Assembly: GCA_016177875.1 (NCBI GenBank) | Contig: JACOUL010000041.1 | Span: 1 to 64,000 of the forward strand | DNA: 64,000 nucleotides | Direction: 5' to 3' | Source of the DNA: Burkholderiales bacterium | Lineage (GTDB): Bacteria > Pseudomonadota > Gammaproteobacteria > Burkholderiales > Burkholderiaceae_D | In this document: piece after piece, positions 14,168-38,444 of the stretch | Layout of the letters: each line of letters starts with the position of its first letter | How positions within the stretch are numbered: position 1 is the first letter of the stretch | Position numbers and translations under genes: made by a program | Notes under the pieces: model-generated | Databases searched by the model: none | What the model was told of the DNA's origin: nothing | Seen by the model: the letters and a program-made list of their open reading frames with translations, nothing else

Positions 14168-14626
14168 TTATCGGCGCCGCGACAGCCACGCATCCAAAGA
14201 AATGCGGCCGGACCCGAATGCCACCAGCACCAAGAGTAACGCGCCCCAGTAGAAATGATCGTTCAAGGCTGCCGGACATTCGAACTTGAATAGCTGCGGA
14301 TAAGAAATAACGGCCATTGCATTAACAAAGAACAGGCCCAGTGCCGCCGGGCGCGACAATAAGCCGACGAAGAGCAGCACTGGAAATGCCAGTTCCCCCA
14401 TCGCACCCATCACGGCCGCCAGTTCCGGCGGCAAGATCGGAACCTGGTATTCGTCTCGGAATAATGCAAGCGTACTGTCCCAGTCGCGAACCTTCACGAC
14501 TCCGGCCTTGAAGAATTGCCAGCCGACGTAGAGCCGGATCGCCAGACTCATCAAGGATCCGCCCCATTCGGTAAGCTTCGCATCGAAGCACATGCTCGCC
14601 CGATGCAGGCGCAAGATTTTTTCCAT
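14168..14626 (-). CDS. bufD: BufD, DoxX family membrane protein of the bufferin operon
   Basis: The 152-residue protein has four membrane helices and the DoxX pattern (RLYVGWQFFKAGVVKVRDW; ILPPELAAVMGAMGELAFPV). In bufferin operons a DoxX protein is the usual fourth gene, assumed to support export or redox steps in the membrane. AAGGAAAACATC precedes the ATG. It follows bufC by 21 bases on the same strand. The assignment as bufD depends mainly on context. Confidence 0.85.
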   Translation of the reverse strand: MEKILRLHRASMCFDAKLTEWGGSLMSLAIRLYVGWQFFKAGVVKVRDWDSTLALFRDEYQVPILPPELAAVMGAMGELAFPVLLFVGLLSRPAALGLFFVNAMAVISYPQLFKFECPAALNDHFYWGALLLVLVAFGSGRISLDAWLSRRR

Positions 14627-14647
14627 GATGTTTTCCTTATCGTTGAT

Positions 14648-15427
14648 TTATGAGAACTGCAAATCCACGAGCACGCCGCTCTGCAGCCACTGCTGCAAAT
14701 GCGCGCCGAAATCGAAGTTTTCTTCGACGTCCAACGCCGCATCGAGCGCAGCGCCCAAAGGCTGTCCTTGCGACAAGGACGACAAGGCCGCATAAGCGCT
14801 CGCGGTCAATGCAAGCACACTCACTTTCCAATGCGGACGCGTCACCAAGGCGAAGGAAGGCATGTCGATCCGCTCCGGCAAAGCGTGTTCCGATTTCGTT
14901 TGATGCGCGAACCAAATATCGGTCAACGCCCACCGGGACGCAAACAATGTGCAAGCCGGATGTAATGCGAGGTGAGCTCGATCGAGCGCTTCAGGCGCCA
15001 ATTGCGCAAACCGTTCAATCGGCAGCGCTTGTGCATTAGCCGCATAGTGTGCGCGATGCACAGCCCATTCAAGCGCGGCGACATCCGGAAAATACGGATA
15101 GTCCGCCACATGCGTAAAGCCCGCGAGAAATTCGGAAAAATGCGCGCCGAAATAATTCAGGTCGCCTATTTTCGATGGGTAGGCTTTGCCGTATTCACGC
15201 GCCAGCCCTTCAAAGAATTCTTCGCCGACCAGGGCTTGAATCACGGGGTAAGCCGCTGCTAAAGTCTTTCCCCAATTCGCGATTTGATTGCCGCGATAAA
15301 GGGCAAGCCTCCGCTCATTCAAACCGGCGTCGCCTTTGAATAAGGCTAGCGCCTGCGGCACGGTCTCCGGTTCGAACAAGGCGAGAGAAAATGCCTGCTG
15401 CACGCCAGACAGGTCAGCCGATCGCAC
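14648..15427 (-). CDS. bufC: BufC, HvfC/BufC-type (DUF2063) partner of the RiPP maturase
   Basis: The 259-residue soluble protein has the N-terminal DUF2063 domain ([52 protein letters not shown]) and a looser C-terminal half. In MNIO systems this partner binds the precursor peptide and presents it to the maturase. The start is taken as GTG 15427, which overlaps the end of bufB by 14 bases and has GGAGA six bases before it. The longer frame to 15481 would start deep inside bufB with an Arg-rich segment that is only the bufB sequence read in another frame. Confidence 0.88.
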
Positions 15428-16277
15428 GGCACGTCTCCTCTTGCGCGCGACGCGCCGTCGAGCGCGCCAATTCAGCTTCACGCAACAACACGTCCAAAAC
15501 AGGAATATCGGTATCCCATTCGATTAACGTCGATACGGTGCCGAAACGCCTTACCGCTTGTTCGTACAAATCCCAAACCGCCCCGGCGACACGATCGCCA
15601 TGATGGTCAACGACGGCATCCGGCGTAATCAAATGCCCTGCCAAATGCATTTCACCGACGACGTGCGTCGGCAAATCCAGCAATGCCTGATGGGCGTCTT
15701 CGCCATGATTGCATTGATTGACGAAGAGATTGTTAATATCGAGCAGCACGCCGCAGCCGGTGCGTTCGGCAAGCGCCGCGAGAAATTCAGTCTCGGTCAT
15801 CGCATCGTCTCGGTAGCGCAAATAGGTCGAGACGTTTTCCAAAAGAATTTGCCGGCCAAGCGTTTGCTGGACAGCATCGACGCGTTCGCAAAGAAGCGTC
15901 AAGGCTTCCGTCGTCAGCGGCAGCGGCAGCAAATCGTTCAAATGCCTATCGCCGACCGCGCCCCAGCACAAATGTTCGGATACCAAGACGGGTTGAATTG
16001 CGTTGACCAATTCACGCACACGCGCTAAATGCTGTTGCGAAAAACCGCGCGCTGAACCCAGTCCTAAACCGACGCCATGCACGCTGATGGGATAATCGCG
16101 GCGCAGTTCTTCGAGAACATGCCGGTCCCAACCGCCCGCATCCAGATAATTCTCGGTATGGACCTCCAGCCAGTCGACCTTGGGCCGCCGCTGAAGAAAG
16201 TCGCGATAATGCGGAGCGCGCAACCCCACGCCGAAACCGAGTTCTGGACAGACCCCTGCATACTCGATCGACGGCAT
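15414..16277 (-). CDS. bufB: BufB, MNIO (DUF692) multinuclear iron RiPP maturase
   Basis: The protein has about 287 residues and the TIM-barrel hallmarks of DUF692: [76 protein letters not shown] and LIEWDTDIP. The His, Glu, Asp and Asn residues in these motifs form the di/tri-iron site in characterised members. Such enzymes oxidise cysteines of the precursor; in bufferins they make thiooxazole groups (established for the family, not shown here). ATG 16277 is used; an in-frame TTG 16304 and a GTG between them are alternatives. It lies just downstream of bufA on the same strand. Confidence 0.92.
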
Positions 16278-16307
16278 GGCGATTGCTGCGCTCACGGACA
16301 GCAACGA

Positions 16308-16592
16308 TTACTTCTTAGCTGCCGGCGCGGACATCTTACCGCCCATTTTTTCGCAAGTGCCTTTAGCAACGTATTTCCACTCGTTCGGGCTGTTGTCTTG
16401 CTTAGCTTGACCGGCGCAAGAATGCGAACCATTGGTGCTGGCGCAGTCGTTTTGCCCTGCCTTCGCAACGCCGAAGCATTTTTCCTTATCCTTATTGCCG
16501 GCTGCTTGACTGCTGTAATCCTGTGCTTGGCTGGCGCCGGCGGCGCAAAGTGTGGCGAGTGCGGTGGCAAGCAAGACGTGACGTTTATTCAT
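16308..16592 (-). CDS. bufA: BufA, bufferin-type RiPP metallophore precursor (DUF2282)
   Basis: The 94-residue precursor starts with a Sec signal peptide (to about SQAQ, residue 24). The mature part has four cysteines at 39, 50, 59 and 80 in the DUF2282 setting [21 protein letters not shown] and KGTCEKMGG. Bufferins are exported, cysteine-modified peptides that bind copper and lower its toxicity in the periplasm. GGAG lies about 12 bases before the ATG, a slightly long spacing. It heads the bufABCD run, the normal order. A candidate ECF promoter lies upstream. Confidence 0.93.
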
Positions 16593-32930: not shown

Positions 32931-33722
32931 TTAGGCAGAAACAGCGCCGCAGAAGGCGGCCTTCTCAGCGGACTTAGCTTCGATGTTGGTAGCCGCACCG
33001 CAAAATGCAACTTCGGCTTTGCCGCAAAAAGCAGCTTGCTTTTCAGCAGCACCGCAGAAAGCAGCCTCCTGCTGAGTCTCGGCCGCAGCACCGCAAAATG
33101 CAGCTTCTGCTTTGCCGCAAAATGCAGCTTGCTTTTCAGCAGCACCGCAGAAAGCGACATCCTGCTGAACCTCGGCTGCAGCGCCGCAAAATGCAACTTC
33201 GGCTTTGCCGCAAAAGGCAGCTTGCTTTTCAGCGGCGCCGCAGAAAGCAGCCTCCCGCTGAATCTCGGCCGCAGCGCCGCAAAATGCATCTTCGGCTTTG
33301 CCGCAAAACGCGGTAGCGGTCGAATTTGCCGAGCCGAATTCCTGAGCATACAGGCGGCGCATAGCATCGGCCGCAGCTTCCTGTTTCACCGCGTCTTCTT
33401 CGCCGCGCAAGCCGAAATACGGGTTGTGGTGCAAGAAGTAACCAAAAATGTTTTGGCAATCCTTGGCATACTTCATCGTGTCGAGAATATGGCCGTGCCA
33501 GAATTTGTCGGCAGCCAAGCTCGGCGCGATTGGCTCGTCCGGATACTTCACCAATAGCGCCAGAAAACGCTTGTATTCCACCTCATGGCGATCGGCTTCT
33601 TCGCGAGTCCAGCCATAGCCGTCTCTCTTATGCATCATCTTGGATTTCACTTGTTCAAGATCCAGCGCAAAAATGGCCTTGACAACGTCCGCCGGCTTCT
33701 TGGTGGGGGGAATCTGATTCAT
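32931..33722 (-). CDS. GRDP-like protein with a 12-fold Phe-Cys-Gly repeat tail
   Basis: The 263-residue protein has no signal peptide. Residues 1-125 resemble the glycine-rich-domain-containing-protein-like family (KFWHGHILDTMKYAKDCQ, GYFLHHNPYFGL). The tail from about 138 to the end has twelve FCG motifs (Cys 140, 148, 161, 171, 179, 192, 202, 210, 223, 233, 241, 258) in Ala/Glu/Lys/Gln linkers. They are arranged as a 31-residue unit of three (spacings 8, 13, 10) repeated three times plus a partial unit. AAAGGA precedes ATG 33722; the longer frame has no such site. The tail could be a multi-core RiPP precursor, a metal-binding protein or a structural repeat. No function is known to me. Confidence 0.75.
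   Translation of the reverse strand: MNQIPPTKKPADVVKAIFALDLEQVKSKMMHKRDGYGWTREEADRHEVEYKRFLALLVKYPDEPIAPSLAADKFWHGHILDTMKYAKDCQNIFGYFLHHNPYFGLRGEEDAVKQEAAADAMRRLYAQEFGSANSTATAFCGKAEDAFCGAAAEIQREAAFCGAAEKQAAFCGKAEVAFCGAAAEVQQDVAFCGAAEKQAAFCGKAEAAFCGAAAETQQEAAFCGAAEKQAAFCGKAEVAFCGAATNIEAKSAEKAAFCGAVSA
32937..33313. repeat. 93-bp tandem coding repeat (FCG units)
   Basis: The 3' half of the FCG gene is a tandem repeat of 93 bp, about three full copies and a diverged last copy. Copies are nearly identical with scattered substitutions. The reverse strand and shifted frames also stay open through it, which creates several spurious ORFs. Confidence 0.85.
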
Positions 33723-34034
33723 GGTTAATCCTTTCTTCTTAATATGGGAAAAATGAATAGCTCCCGGAATGGGAACTGTCTCCGACTTATTTCCTGCATG
33801 AACTATAAAATCTATCATATGCCATTTGCGCAATGTCATACTGAAGTTTGATAAATCTCAAACTTTGTGTAGGCTAGCAATTTCCAGGGGCGGTTCCTGA
33901 CGAGAATATGGACATTTTTTGACGACTCGCTATTTTTATACTTGGCATTTCCATACTGACACACAGGCATTGTATTTACTTTAAGGAATGCTTGGAGCCA
34001 AGTAAAATGAGCCTCCTCACAAGTTTTTACCTCT
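33723..34034. other. Intergenic region upstream of the FCG gene and of the CHASE kinase
   Basis: The 312-base A/T-rich region between divergent genes should hold both promoters. It contains a perfect inverted repeat at 33844-33865. On the plus strand an ATG at 34007 with GGAG upstream opens a short frame overlapping the kinase start. I find no convincing -35/-10 pair. Confidence 0.5.
33844..33865. promoter_or_regulatory. Inverted repeat AAGTTTGA-N6-TCAAACTT
   Basis: This is a perfect 8-bp inverted repeat with a 6-base spacer, about 122 bases upstream of the FCG gene and 170 upstream of the kinase. Its symmetry suits a dimeric regulator. Confidence 0.4.
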
Positions 34035-36203
34035 ATGCGAATCTCAAAGCGCTTTTTCCGATCCGTTCTTACCTCCAGCGTATGGTGGCTGGGCCTAACG
34101 ATCGCCTTGGTGCTGGCGCTGCTCAGCTCGCGTATGACGGAACAGAAAGCGGCCGCCGAATTCGACCATCAGACCAACACCGCCGAAGCTGCGATTCAGA
34201 CGCGGGTGCAAGCCTATATCGATTTGCTGCGCAGCGTCCGTGCGCTGTTCCACACCAATGATGCCGTCAGCCGCGCGCAATTTCGCACCTTTATCCAGCA
34301 ATTAAACCTGGAACAGAGCTTCCCCGGCATTCGCAACGTAAATTTCGCGCCGCGCGTCCTGGCGAGCGAACGTAAGGCGTTCGTCGCCTCGGTGCGGCGC
34401 GACACCAGCGTCGATTCGCAAGGCTATCCCGATTTCTCCATCAATCCGCCTGGGGACCGTCCGGAACATCATGTGCTGACTTACCAAGAGCCGATGGAAA
34501 AGAATGTCAGCAGCTTCGGCTTCGACATGGCGTCGATCGAAATGGTCAAAAAATCGCTCGATGTCTCGCGTGATACCGGCGAGCTTAGTGCCTCCGGCAA
34601 GGTAATCCGCATCGTCGGCCCGAACCGTCATCCGGCGCTTGCCATGAGACTTCCGCTCTATCGGCACGGCATGCCGCTCAATACGGTGGAGCAGCGGCGC
34701 GCCGCCTACTACGGCTCGGTCGGTGCGGGATTCGATATTCACAAGCTCATGGCGGATGCGCTTGACAAGAATATGCAGCCCCATATGCGCGTCAGGCTAT
34801 ATGACACGGGGCTTAACTATGAACAACGCAGCATCGGCACCACCGACCCCGGGAGGCTGCTGTTTGACAGCGAACACGAGAACGCCGACGTCAAGCCGCA
34901 ATCGATCAGGCCGCAACCAAGGGATAAATTTTTCAAGAGAGTGCCGCTGCAAGTCGGCTCGCGCGTCTGGGAAGTGGAGTTCAGCGCGATCAAATCCGGC
35001 ATGCTGAGTCCGCTGGAGATCGCGCTACCTTGGGTAGTGCTTGCCATATGCCTGACTGCTGCACTGCTGCTGCATATCATCTATTACTCGCTCAACTCGG
35101 CGCGTGAGCGCGCCGTCGAAATTGCGACGGATATGACCAAGGATTTGCGCGCAAGCGAAGCAAACCTGGCCGAAGCGCAACACATGGCACATCTTGGCAG
35201 CTGGTTATTTTCCCCCTCCAGCGGGAAAATGGTCTGGTCGAATGAAACTTACCGTATTTTCGGCATGGGACACGACATCGACGCAAATATCGACAATTTC
35301 CTGCAATGCCTGCGTGAGGATGAGCGGGAAACGATCCGTGCCGGAATTATGGATCCTATTCAAAGCGGTGAAGAATTTAGCGCCGAACACCGCATCGTGC
35401 AAAACGGCGGTGGCCAGCGTTGGGTGCACACCATTGTTCGACTGGACAACAGCAGCGAAGACCGACTTCTGCGCGGCACCATCATGGATATCACCGATCG
35501 TAAGGAAGCGGTGGAAGCGATGAAACGTTCTCAAGAGTTGCTGCGCGAACTCACTGCGCATCAAGATCGGGTAAAAGAAGAAGAACGCAAGCGCATCGCG
35601 CGCGAAATCCATGACGAACTTGGACAAACTCTGCTGGCGCTTCGTATTGATATCGCCATGCTCGAAGCGCGCACCGGGCAAACCCATCCCAAGCTTAACC
35701 AGAAAGTTCGCGCCGTGCTCAGCCATATCGACGGCACCGTCCGGACCATACGCAATATCATCAACAACTTGCGGCCGGCGGTGCTGGATCTCGGCTTGAC
35801 CGCAGCCATCGAATGGCAGGTCGCGGAATTCGAGCGGCGCAGCGGGATCGATTGCGAGCTCATCATTGGAACACGCGATTTTTCCGTGGACGATACGCGC
35901 GCAACTGCCCTGTTCCGCGTCTTACAAGAGTCGCTTACCAACGTGTTGCGCCATGCCGAAGCGACGCGGGTAATGATTCGCCTTTATCAAGAGAGCAATC
36001 AATTGGTAATGAAGATTACCGACAATGGCGTCGGTATTTATCCAAATTCGCGCCGCAAAGCCAATTCATTTGGATTAGTCGGTGTGGAAGAACGCATTCA
36101 TGCGCTGAACGGCAAGTGCGTCATCAGCAGCGTACCCGGCGAAGGCACTACGTTGACAATCTATATTCCGATGGCCCGCACGAACCGTACGCTCATCGCC
36201 TGA
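34035..36203 (+). CDS. CHASE-PAS-HisKA_3 sensor histidine kinase
   Basis: The 722-residue inner-membrane kinase has a first helix (about 15-32), a periplasmic CHASE domain (about 60-300; AYIDLLRSVRALF, FPGIRNVNFAPRV), a second helix (about 335-355), a PAS domain (about 375-495), a HisKA_3 dimerisation helix with REIHDELGQTLLALRID (phospho-acceptor His526) and an HATPase (DNGVGI, GLVGVEERI). Such kinases phosphorylate NarL/LuxR-type regulators; none is adjacent. ATG 34035 is the first start after an in-frame TGA and has no ribosome site. A short upstream frame from 34007, which has one, overlaps it and may couple translation. Confidence 0.88.
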   Translation: MRISKRFFRSVLTSSVWWLGLTIALVLALLSSRMTEQKAAAEFDHQTNTAEAAIQTRVQAYIDLLRSVRALFHTNDAVSRAQFRTFIQQLNLEQSFPGIRNVNFAPRVLASERKAFVASVRRDTSVDSQGYPDFSINPPGDRPEHHVLTYQEPMEKNVSSFGFDMASIEMVKKSLDVSRDTGELSASGKVIRIVGPNRHPALAMRLPLYRHGMPLNTVEQRRAAYYGSVGAGFDIHKLMADALDKNMQPHMRVRLYDTGLNYEQRSIGTTDPGRLLFDSEHENADVKPQSIRPQPRDKFFKRVPLQVGSRVWEVEFSAIKSGMLSPLEIALPWVVLAICLTAALLLHIIYYSLNSARERAVEIATDMTKDLRASEANLAEAQHMAHLGSWLFSPSSGKMVWSNETYRIFGMGHDIDANIDNFLQCLREDERETIRAGIMDPIQSGEEFSAEHRIVQNGGGQRWVHTIVRLDNSSEDRLLRGTIMDITDRKEAVEAMKRSQELLRELTAHQDRVKEEERKRIAREIHDELGQTLLALRIDIAMLEARTGQTHPKLNQKVRAVLSHIDGTVRTIRNIINNLRPAVLDLGLTAAIEWQVAEFERRSGIDCELIIGTRDFSVDDTRATALFRVLQESLTNVLRHAEATRVMIRLYQESNQLVMKITDNGVGIYPNSRRKANSFGLVGVEERIHALNGKCVISSVPGEGTTLTIYIPMARTNRTLIA

Positions 36204-36241: not shown

Positions 36242-37852
36242 TCATTTCTCGATGATATCCGCCACTGCGGCGCCGAATGCATTGGAACACTTTGTTGCAA
36301 TCGATAGTCCGCGCTGACGCCCGCCGTTACTGCAATCGGCATCACCCTGATTCACCGAAGTGCCGGTCAGCCACTGTAAATTGGCGCGCCCTTTCGGGTC
36401 GGTGAGCGTCGTAATGAAAGGCCCTTCTTTGGCATTGCCGAGCAAAGACAAATCGCGCGGCGACTCGGCAACGACCGCCAGCATCCTGTCGGTTCCGGCC
36501 GGCCCTTGCGCCGTAATTTGCCATTTCTTGCGCGGCAGCTTTAGAGTTTGACCGGCGCTAATCGCATTATCTTGATCCAGTTCATTAGGAAAGAGCAGGT
36601 AGTAGCTCTTATCATCCGATCCCAGCATGATGAGATAGACATAACCGTCATGCGAAGATGTCACCGAGAAATCTAAATTGTCTTTACCAATGCGCAGCGC
36701 CGAGTTGCGCAAATTGATCGAGACCTTGCGGCGTGCATCACGCTGCGCGTAGATATCGTCCAAAGCGGCAGATGCCGGCGGTTTGACCGCAGGGGCCGCA
36801 GACGCAGTGGTTTGGGTATTGGCGGAAACTTGGACGATAGGCGCGGCAGACTGGCCATCCGTCGATGCCTGAGCCACCGAGTTGCTCGCGAATAGATTAG
36901 GAATGAAGGCCCGATTGCCGCCAATGGTGATATGCGGCGCCGCATATTGCGCGTTGTTGGCAAATCGCTTGTCGATCTTGCCCTGTGCGCAAGCTGCAAT
37001 CTCGTCGACCGATATGGCGCCTGAATTATCGATGTCTTCCGCATCGCTCAGCATGCAATCGCGCCAAGCTTGAGTGGCTAAGCCGCCGCCGGTCTCATCG
37101 TCGAATGAAATCTCATCCTGACGCGAAGACGAAACTTCGACGATATTCTGCGGCAGCGCGCCTTGTTTCGACGCTTGGTCGGTAAAGCTGCGGGTTCTGA
37201 GGTTGGCCGGTGTAGCGCAGAACGAGGGCACGCCGGCAGGAGAATATTTAGGCGTCAGCTTGGCAAAGGCGCTGCCGGTAAAGGAACGTGTCGTTAACGG
37301 TTTGTCGACCACGCCGCCGGAATGACAAGCGTCGTAAAACACGAACAGCTTATCGGTCTTGTCCGAAATCGGCTTCAACAATGCCGCCATGCGTTGATTG
37401 GTCAAGGGCTTGGAGTCGGATGGCAATAGCGCCTCAACACAGCCATCCTTTTTCAATGCTTCGTCGTACCAGCGGGTGCCATGACCCGAGTAATACAGGA
37501 ACACGCGATCGCCTGGTTGCGTGCGCTTGACGAGCTCGTTGATTTCTTGCTCGATGCGCGTCGAAGTGGCGTCAAGGTCGCGCACGTAACGAATATTTTC
37601 TTTTGGAATGGACATCGACTCCGCCATGCGCGTCGCCGAATCCATATCGTGCTGAATTCCCTTCAACGAAGGTACCGTCGAATTCATGTATTCGCCCACA
37701 CCGATGATCAAGGCATGGCGCGACGCGATGCTGAGAGAACGCTTGCCCGACGCCGGTTGAGCGTGCAGCAAGGCCGGCGTCAATGCGCCGACGAACACCA
37801 AAATATTGAGCGCCGGCAGCAATTCCTTCAAAGCTTTGGAAGAGGAGGCCAT
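36242..37852 (-). CDS. Exported caspase-family (C14) protein with DUF4384-like C-terminus
   Basis: The 536-residue protein has a hydrophobic N-terminus (to about HAQPASG, residue 36). Its caspase/metacaspase-like p20 domain carries the catalytic pair: His124 in YYSGHGTRW and Cys176 in FYDACHSGG. A Ca-binding-like loop (EDIDNSGAISVDEI) follows. A linker rich in Ala, Ser and Thr leads to a beta domain of DUF4384 type (DGYVYLIMLGSDDKSYYLLF). Members cleave after basic residues or serve as scaffolds. It starts one base after the stop of the OmpA-like gene and so forms a tight operon with it. Confidence 0.86.
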   Translation of the reverse strand: MASSSKALKELLPALNILVFVGALTPALLHAQPASGKRSLSIASRHALIIGVGEYMNSTVPSLKGIQHDMDSATRMAESMSIPKENIRYVRDLDATSTRIEQEINELVKRTQPGDRVFLYYSGHGTRWYDEALKKDGCVEALLPSDSKPLTNQRMAALLKPISDKTDKLFVFYDACHSGGVVDKPLTTRSFTGSAFAKLTPKYSPAGVPSFCATPANLRTRSFTDQASKQGALPQNIVEVSSSRQDEISFDDETGGGLATQAWRDCMLSDAEDIDNSGAISVDEIAACAQGKIDKRFANNAQYAAPHITIGGNRAFIPNLFASNSVAQASTDGQSAAPIVQVSANTQTTASAAPAVKPPASAALDDIYAQRDARRKVSINLRNSALRIGKDNLDFSVTSSHDGYVYLIMLGSDDKSYYLLFPNELDQDNAISAGQTLKLPRKKWQITAQGPAGTDRMLAVVAESPRDLSLLGNAKEGPFITTLTDPKGRANLQWLTGTSVNQGDADCSNGGRQRGLSIATKCSNAFGAAVADIIEK

Positions 37853-37853
37853 A

Positions 37854-38444
37854 TCATTGCTCCAAGCTGACGATACGCACGCGCCGGTTTTCCGGTGCGG
37901 CAGGGTTGTCGGTATTCAGAGGCTGCGACGACCCCTTGCCGATTGCATACATACGGTCTGCGGCGACGTGCTGCCGGATTAAGACGCGTCTTACTTCATC
38001 GGCCCGTGCAGCCGAGAGCTTTAAGTTATACGCGATACTGCCGCGGCTATCCGTATGGCCTTCGATACGAAACTTCATGGATGCCAGTTCGGATGAAGCC
38101 AACGCGGCGGACAATTCTTCGAGCGCCTTGCGACTTGCCGGCGATACCTTGCTGGAATTGAATTCGAATTGAATCGCCAAATCGATGGAACCCGAAACAC
38201 TCGACGCTGACGAATTGGGCGTTGGAGGCGTTTGATTAACTGCCTCATTGGATTGCGCATTGGACGAGGCCTCTACTTCAGCTTCCGCTTGCTTCACCCC
38301 CAAATTACGCATGCCGCGCGTTCTGGATGGCTTAAGCGCGTCAATGATCTGCTGCGAAGATGGGTCTGCAGTGGGCGTCTGCGCGAATGTCGCGGCCGGC
38401 ATTGCGCCTAAACCCCATACCAGCCACAAACAGAAAATGAACAT
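37854..38444 (-). CDS. OmpA-like peptidoglycan-binding protein paired with the caspase
   Basis: The protein has 196 residues from the first ATG. A hydrophobic export segment ends at ATFAQ, a Ser/Asn/Pro-rich linker follows, and residues 85-195 form an OmpA domain (IQFEFNSSKVSPASRKALEEL, shown here to 21 only as start and end IQFEF and LEEL; FRIEGHTDSRGS; NLKLSAARADEVRRVL; ENRRVRI). The domain binds peptidoglycan, so it should tether something at the cell wall, plausibly the caspase-like partner. The hydrophobic segment lacks a positive N-terminus if ATG is used; an ATT start five codons earlier fits better (see the next entry). Confidence 0.85.
   Translation of the reverse strand: MFIFCLWLVWGLGAMPAATFAQTPTADPSSQQIIDALKPSRTRGMRNLGVKQAEAEVEASSNAQSNEAVNQTPPTPNSSASSVSGSIDLAIQFEFNSSKVSPASRKALEELSAALASSELASMKFRIEGHTDSRGSIAYNLKLSAARADEVRRVLIRQHVAADRMYAIGKGSSQPLNTDNPAAPENRRVRIVSLEQ

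Follow-up and report, generated by a model that had tools for sequence, protein, structure and literature searches.

A bacterial family of GRDP-like domain proteins with aromatic-Cys/Ser repeat tails and a genomic link to CHASE-domain sensors

The window, which is the whole stretch of 64,000 nucleotides analysed here, contains a gene whose product joins an N-terminal domain to a tail in which Phe-Cys-Gly (FCG) is repeated many times (Table 1), and the question is what such a tail, and the domain that carries it, might do. Comparison with homologues gives a well-supported picture at the level of sequence, made up of the motif grammar of the tail, an FNR-type box, a CHASE-domain partner and an ancient His/Cys set in the domain. 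It also hints that the repeat family may form an undescribed self-processing or signalling system.

Table 1 Features of the repeat gene and its surroundings in the window
Feature	Position	Strand	Basis
CDS, 263 aa, GRDP-like N-terminal domain and 12 x FCG tail	32931..33722	-	Translation (ATG start); homologues
N-terminal domain, residues 1-132, with W75, H76, H78, D81, Y85, C89, H98 and H99	33327..33722	-	AF2; invariant columns; PF07173 sub-threshold
Repeat tail, 12 FCG units, residues 139-263	32934..33308	-	TRF, motif positions, codons
FNR/ANR-type box TTGAGATTTATCAA, 9/10 matches	33848..33861	-	Inside inverted repeat 33844-33865
CHASE-PAS-HisKA_3-HATPase sensor kinase, divergent	34035..36203	+	Pfam CHASE, 153.5 bits

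Translation of the minus strand from 33722 to 32931 bore out the architecture that had been proposed, a WHGHILDT-type N-terminal domain (the motif being residues 75-82) followed by exactly 12 FCG units, which start at residues 139, 147, 160, 170, 178, 191, 201, 209, 222, 232, 240 and 257. The longer start at 33839 given by the ORF tool (302 aa) is unlikely, since alignments of homologues back the start at 33722. The protein has no evident signal peptide. The 93-bp DNA units were recovered by TRF as a tandem array at 32995-33308 with a period of 93 bp, 3.4 copies and 90 % matches. The spacing of the units runs 8-13-10 three times and then ends with 8 and 17, so the strict rhythm described in the original prediction holds up to the 11th unit but not to the last. 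Similarly, all 12 Cys of the tail lie in F-C-G as claimed, but the one further Cys of the protein, C89 of the N-terminal domain, does not. Over the 12 units Phe is encoded by TTT in 8 and TTC in 4, Gly by GGC in 8 and GGT in 4, and the preceding Ala by all four of its codons; despite this synonymous drift A-F-C-G shows no amino acid change, whereas the linkers do, which suggests selection on the motif and not mere copying. The tail was modelled at low confidence (AF2, block means of 31-55 pLDDT).

Judged from its homologues, the window protein is a member of a family and not an orphan. At E ≤ 1e-10, 182 of 392 genomes from its taxonomic family encode the N-terminal domain, spread over 12 of 44 genera. 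A set of 60 relatives gave 14 with the domain at E ≤ 0.001, some remote, and a phylum-wide set of 398 genomes gave 27 at E ≤ 1e-6, mostly remote; all three counts include the own genome. From the scan of named genomes the best 80 of 185 encoding stretches were taken, corresponding to 79 loci that are mainly from Oxalobacteraceae (Noviherbaspirillum, Massilia, Duganella, Janthinobacterium, Pseudoduganella, Rugamonas and Undibacterium), with some betaproteobacterial MAGs and one Thiomargarita MAG. These yielded 96 homologues from 75 of the 79 loci, L033, L078, L080 and L092 being dropped because no start codon fitted the filter. Together with the window gene and its paralogue this makes 98 genes, and 97 tails when the truncated tail of L035 is excluded; near-identical rows were omitted from alignments A2 (58) and A4 (69). 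The own genome encodes the domain twice, and the paralogue (L164:8299-8871, contig C25), with three YCG units and an RPTL end, is convergent with a dCache-GGDEF-EAL gene and has no CHASE gene beside it. The family is apparently undescribed, in that no description was found among the literature matches listed, from which most subscription journals fall outside.

The tails of the family are arrays of A-[F/Y/W]-[C/S] units in which selection seems to hold the motif, while the remaining sequence turns over rapidly and concertedly. Among the 97 tails (loci from the best 80 of 185 stretches) 41 are of Cys type, 53 of Ser type and one is mixed; the two that are neither are the Thiomargarita tail, with its Cys in a TATC unit, and that of L098, in which the repeats break off. 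Tail Cys is preceded by F, Y or W in 340 of 360 cases, tail aromatics are followed by Cys or Ser in 834 of 974, motif aromatics are preceded by Ala in 808 of 857, and 742 of 761 unit spacings measure 7-20 residues. In most proteins a single core recurs along the whole tail (AYSGRAV, AYSAAPG, AWCTRT, AWCGRAP, AFCGIVKPPKQ and AYCAGPWDK among others). On the N-domain tree, which has few columns and many open forks, parsimony requires at least 6 Cys/Ser switches, 2 of them forced by well-supported (starred) branches, and F, Y and W replace one another at least 22 times. A tunable copy number had been suggested, and indeed 14, 17 and 19 AWCTRT-type units were counted in three homologues with nearly identical N-domains (L099, L064 and L087, respectively). 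RP-x-[LIAVF] occurs in the last 25 residues of 67 of 95 complete homologues; the window protein is without it.

Such rapid expansion and homogenisation of units, with copy numbers that differ between close relatives, is what a selfish or neutral minisatellite in an otherwise ordinary domain protein would produce. We nevertheless regard this explanation as highly improbable, because the motif outlasts both synonymous drift inside the array and many sequence turnovers across species. A multivalent scaffold is a second alternative, in which aromatic stickers in a disordered tail would drive oligomerisation or partner docking at low oxygen with no chemistry on Cys or Ser. The free interchange of F, Y and W, the narrow range of unit spacings, the low-confidence prediction for the tail and the drift of the linkers all agree with it, but the residues that flank the aromatics on both sides are kept more strictly than stickers need, and the Cys-rich tails of distant relatives are largely without the aromatic motif. 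On balance the scaffold seems to us somewhat unlikely.

The window tail, being purely FCG, would also suit a Cys-specific function, either metal binding or modification by an MNIO enzyme in the manner of bufferins. Conservation of the Cys among homologues, on which the original prediction had staked its metal-binding tail and which a modified Cys of an MNIO-type precursor would show, was not found, since the position holds Ser in more than half of the tails; with the 53 Ser-type tails and the 6 switches, neither chemistry specific to Cys nor metal binding suffices by itself to account for the family. The MNIO gene announced at about 17 kb is real (15417-16304; PF05114, 343 bits) and lies 16.6 kb from the repeat gene. 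Flanking it are DUF2063, DoxX and, at 16308-16592, a 94-aa ORF that seems to encode a signal peptide and is presumably a BufA-like precursor, and the run at 14168-16592 on the minus strand (DoxX, DUF2063, MNIO and the BufA-like ORF) looks like a complete bufferin-type cluster. In a set of 363 genomes in which phylogeny was not controlled, MNIO and the repeat gene occurred together in 133, the repeat gene only in 22, MNIO only in 105 and neither in 103 (odds ratio 5.9, Fisher p 8e-13). Thus 22 of 155 repeat-positive genomes are without any MNIO at E ≤ 1e-20, and 8 of these were inspected, of which 7 have Cys-type tails and 1 a Ser-type tail. Because the MNIO has a BufA-like precursor of its own and Cys tails persist where MNIO is missing, its action on the FCG tail is unlikely despite the co-occurrence, and MNIO is not required. 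We consider a Cys-specific tail of either kind quite improbable. In the available part of PMC12452194, MNIO-modified bufferins include EGKCG-repeat precursors, which resemble the present family in having repeated Cys units in variable number; there, however, they are described among signal-peptide precursors, and unlike them the repeat family needs no MNIO and has Ser for Cys in many homologous tails. The broader proposal, a multi-core precursor, may still hold, the protein being at most a candidate RiPP.

For the N-terminal domain six helices are predicted (AF2, mean pLDDT 92.8, pTM 0.86). The window protein itself scores 20.5 bits against PF07173 (GRDP-like, DUF1399), below the Pfam gathering cut-off of 22.7, while 68 of the 69 N-domains in alignment A4 match this model at E ≤ 0.01 and the distant relatives L133 and L132 reach 28 and 27.6 bits, respectively; the assignment as GRDP-like is thereby supported. 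The likeness to the plant proteins AtGRDP1/2 lies in the N-domain, which matches the C-terminal portion of the Pfam model, and AtGRDP2 likewise combines the domain with a low-complexity tail, Gly-rich in that protein according to the available part of PMC4299439. The window protein differs in its sub-cut-off score and in having an aromatic-Cys/Ser repeat tail instead of a Gly-rich one. As far as the accessible plant literature goes, the GRDP-like domain is itself termed a domain of unknown function, and among the literature matches listed it has no known biochemistry in plants or bacteria. Foldseek gave no PDB match at E ≤ 0.001 for either the N-domain or the full-length protein. Structural relatives by VIA (best Z 4.5 and 5.4) were uninformative, and two matches of a PDB-sequence profile search (E 0.55 and 0.9) as well as an NCBIfam cittilin match in 1 of 58 sequences (E 0.001) were taken as chance.

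Invariant in the 69 N-domains are W38, R52, L54, D72, W75, H76, H78, I79, L80, D81, T82, Y85, D88, C89, F93, G94, H98, H99, P101 and G104. In 31 distant superfamily members, whose conservation counts are biased because the members were found by a profile of the N-domain and picked by a WH-containing pattern, D72, W75, H76, Y85, H99 and P101 are present in all 31 (for W75 and H76, which are part of the pattern, this proves nothing alone), C89 in 30, G94 in 29 and H98 in 28, and the H78 column holds His in 15 and Phe in 16. These members derive from 33 loci, two of which contributed two rows each and four none. At least two Cys are found in the last 40 residues of 24 of them (7 do not have this), and the Cys content there is 7.9 %, compared to 1.4 % between domain and tail, the tails being of several unlike kinds (GGGCGGCGGD, HACHAPTSCACRTPGACK and PKRCMRKNCKPQKCR). 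An ancient His/Cys set, retained by the domain throughout Pseudomonadota for the most part alongside unrelated tails rich in Cys, is well supported by these alignments, and we infer a joint function of the domain with C-termini that carry Cys. A decayed copy beside a kinase gene (G024; L166:7592-8062) has an altered WH/His motif and no repeat tail, a single case that agrees with both parts sharing one function.

The perfect 8-bp inverted repeat noted upstream of the gene is AAGTTTGA-N6-TCAAACTT (33844-33851/33858-33865). It holds an FNR-type box, TTGAGATTTATCAA, which matches TTGAT-N4-ATCAA at 9 of 10 positions. The box precedes the ATG by 139 bp and falls in upstream DNA common to this gene and the divergent kinase gene. 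Among the 300-bp upstream regions of the 98 family genes a 10/10 match occurs in 18, 9/10 in 34, 8/10 in 31 and less in 15. A box of at least 9/10 is therefore present in 52 of 98 regions, compared to 1.1 % of shuffles (at least 8/10 is seen in 12 % of shuffles), and in 33 of 67 non-redundant regions. Spacers of 2, 3, 5, 6 and 7 gave at least 9 matches in 6, 1, 5, 2 and 6 of the 98, respectively, and were much less enriched than N4. Among 830 other neighbourhood genes, a redundant control set restricted to genes of >150 aa with a coding-like GC pattern, 0.1 % (about one) have a box of at least 9/10, and among 23 distant superfamily genes (400 bp upstream; rows from 26 loci) none do. Kinase genes have one in 15 of 79 cases, partly via shared divergent regions. 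In the own genome, L175 is a Crp-family regulator bearing a cluster of Cys at its N-terminus, and we take it to be Fnr. In Herbaspirillum seropedicae, Fnr1 recognises and binds a palindrome of canonical type, as stated in the available part of PMC5934665. The enrichment of the box, the Crp-family regulator of the own genome and the palindrome of H. seropedicae Fnr1 together make it likely that oxygen controls the repeat gene, in one direction or the other.

A look for a maturase gene beside other copies of the repeat gene had been proposed as a check, but no recurring one was recognised in the neighbour clusters, which were assessed by reading, nor was a protease or exporter; the partner that recurs is the CHASE sensor. 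The BLAST cluster of the window kinase is represented in 75 of 80 neighbourhoods (79 loci, from the best 80 of 185 stretches, and the window), and is missing in L034, L035, L038, L039 and L055. In L035 and L055 CHASE is fused to GGDEF-EAL, giving a CHASE gene in 77 of 80 loci. Pfam confirmed CHASE in the window, L059 and L030, in the last as a 362-aa ORF that overlaps a GAF-GGDEF-EAL ORF and is thus probably part of a broken CHASE-GGDEF-EAL gene. The two genes lie within 1 kb in 70 of 71 loci in which both were placed, with the kinase upstream in tandem in 58, divergent in 9 and downstream in 4. As 62 of the 80 loci share one glnS neighbourhood, in which DnaJ-like (56) and small HTH-like (51) genes also recur, the 77 CHASE loci are not independent cases and the 18 loci outside this neighbourhood provide the better test: a CHASE gene is present in 15 of them, where it lies divergent from, upstream of or downstream of the repeat gene. 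Genomic linkage of the repeat gene to a CHASE-domain sensor, with a varying output domain and a constant CHASE domain, is by these gene neighbourhoods well supported. To our knowledge bacterial CHASE sensors are largely without known ligands, so a recurrent genetic partner is a concrete lead.

Kinase and repeat gene have also been duplicated together, in L083 (three pairs) and L088 (several pairs). In the Massilia locus L083:4620-13955 the three CHASE-kinase/repeat-gene pairs stand in tandem; identity between them is 90-93 % for the kinase parts and 85-99 % for the N-domains, while the sensor parts share about 60 % and the tail cores are AYCAGPW, AYCASPR and AFCASPH. Two L088 pairs orthologous to L083 pairs have kept the tail core, with sensor identities of 82-83 %. 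Joint divergence of sensors and tails in L083, their joint retention in L088 and the association with CHASE regardless of the output domain would fit a peptide signal precursor, whose tail units would be liberated and exported for detection by the neighbouring CHASE domain, as in a polymorphic pheromone-receptor pair. However, recombination (gene conversion) of the contiguous central kinase/N-domain block would explain the same pattern with no selection, no export signal or exporter was seen, and the repeat gene is absent in 4 of 92 genomes carrying a kinase orthologue (E ≤ 1e-120). Across 69 kinase-repeat pairs the linear partial Mantel correlation of tail core and sensor was 0.49 (0/500 permutations), but with ranks and glnS clocks it was 0.14 (0/500 permutations; 60 pairs with glnS), compared to 0.49 for the tail and its own N-domain in the rank test with glnS clocks (60 pairs). 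Coupling of tail and sensor across loci is thus weak once clocks are controlled, and a released signal appears unlikely to us.

Two other neighbours may be mentioned. The TonB receptor of the window was rejected as a partner, as it has no relative (E ≤ 1e-10) among the called ORFs of other neighbourhoods, a comparison in which the Thiomargarita locus was poorly served by gene calling. The homologue at that locus (L034:5071-7800) carries TATCTDKIYVD repeats, and a TonB-receptor Plug-domain gene lies just downstream, within about 60 bp. In the window, a caspase-like (Peptidase_C14) and DUF4384 protein is encoded at 36242-38444 on the minus strand, adjoining an OmpA-domain protein.

The reading that we prefer, although tentatively and short of calling it probable, is that of a domain under oxygen control which acts on the multi-copy tail to which it is fused and is coupled to the CHASE sensor. 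The GRDP-like domain, probably metal-loaded, would bind or chemically act on the Cys/Ser units of its own tail, and the protein would thus be an enzyme or carrier fused to a multi-copy substrate. Expression would respond to oxygen via FNR. The CHASE sensor might read out the tail, or some product derived from it, or else work together with either. Fused burpitide precursors, in which a BURP-domain copper cyclase is joined to core peptides, offer a parallel in the way of working only, namely a His-bearing domain with repeated short aromatic-containing cores, as far as the available part of PMC12186524 describes them. The window protein differs in being bacterial and in its A-[F/Y/W]-[C/S] cores, and no sequence relation was seen (no Pfam match to BURP up to E 1). 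The protein may work like a fused domain-plus-multicore precursor or like a multivalent scaffold. Because the domain is joined here to units that can be counted and clearly typed and that resemble substrates, and comes with an oxygen-regulator site and a sensor partner, its function is open to experiment.

A bolder version, which we think improbable, would extend this self-acting function to the whole superfamily. The WH..HH domain would then be a new fused metalloenzyme or carrier acting on its own Cys/Ser-rich C-terminus across Pseudomonadota, developed in Oxalobacteraceae into a multi-core, fast-diversifying signal precursor that is FNR-controlled and CHASE-read, i.e. a RiPP-like class in which the leader is the maturase. 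TIGR04222 membrane proteins (the model matched L144, one of two relatives scanned) and other WH..HH proteins with GGCGGCGGD-type tails share the Asp, Trp, His, Tyr, Cys, His and Pro positions and mostly a Cys-rich C-terminus. They differ from the repeat family in that several look membrane-anchored (by eye), the tails are of Gly/Cys low complexity with no aromatic-Cys repeat array, and an FNR box of at least 9/10 is missing from the 23 rows mentioned above.

Among the remaining relatives, two short proteins from different phylum groups (L160:7523-8017 and L162:7985-8476) have near-identical Cys tails of the form HACHxPxSCACRxPGACK and possibly represent a separate peptide-like family. Another relative, with a short Cys tail, is found in a same-strand gene run (L163:3869-7183) reminiscent of a biosynthetic operon. 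In this run one gene matches TauD weakly (29 bits) and another resembles a methyltransferase; a UvrA-like ATPase, recognised by eye, adjoins them.
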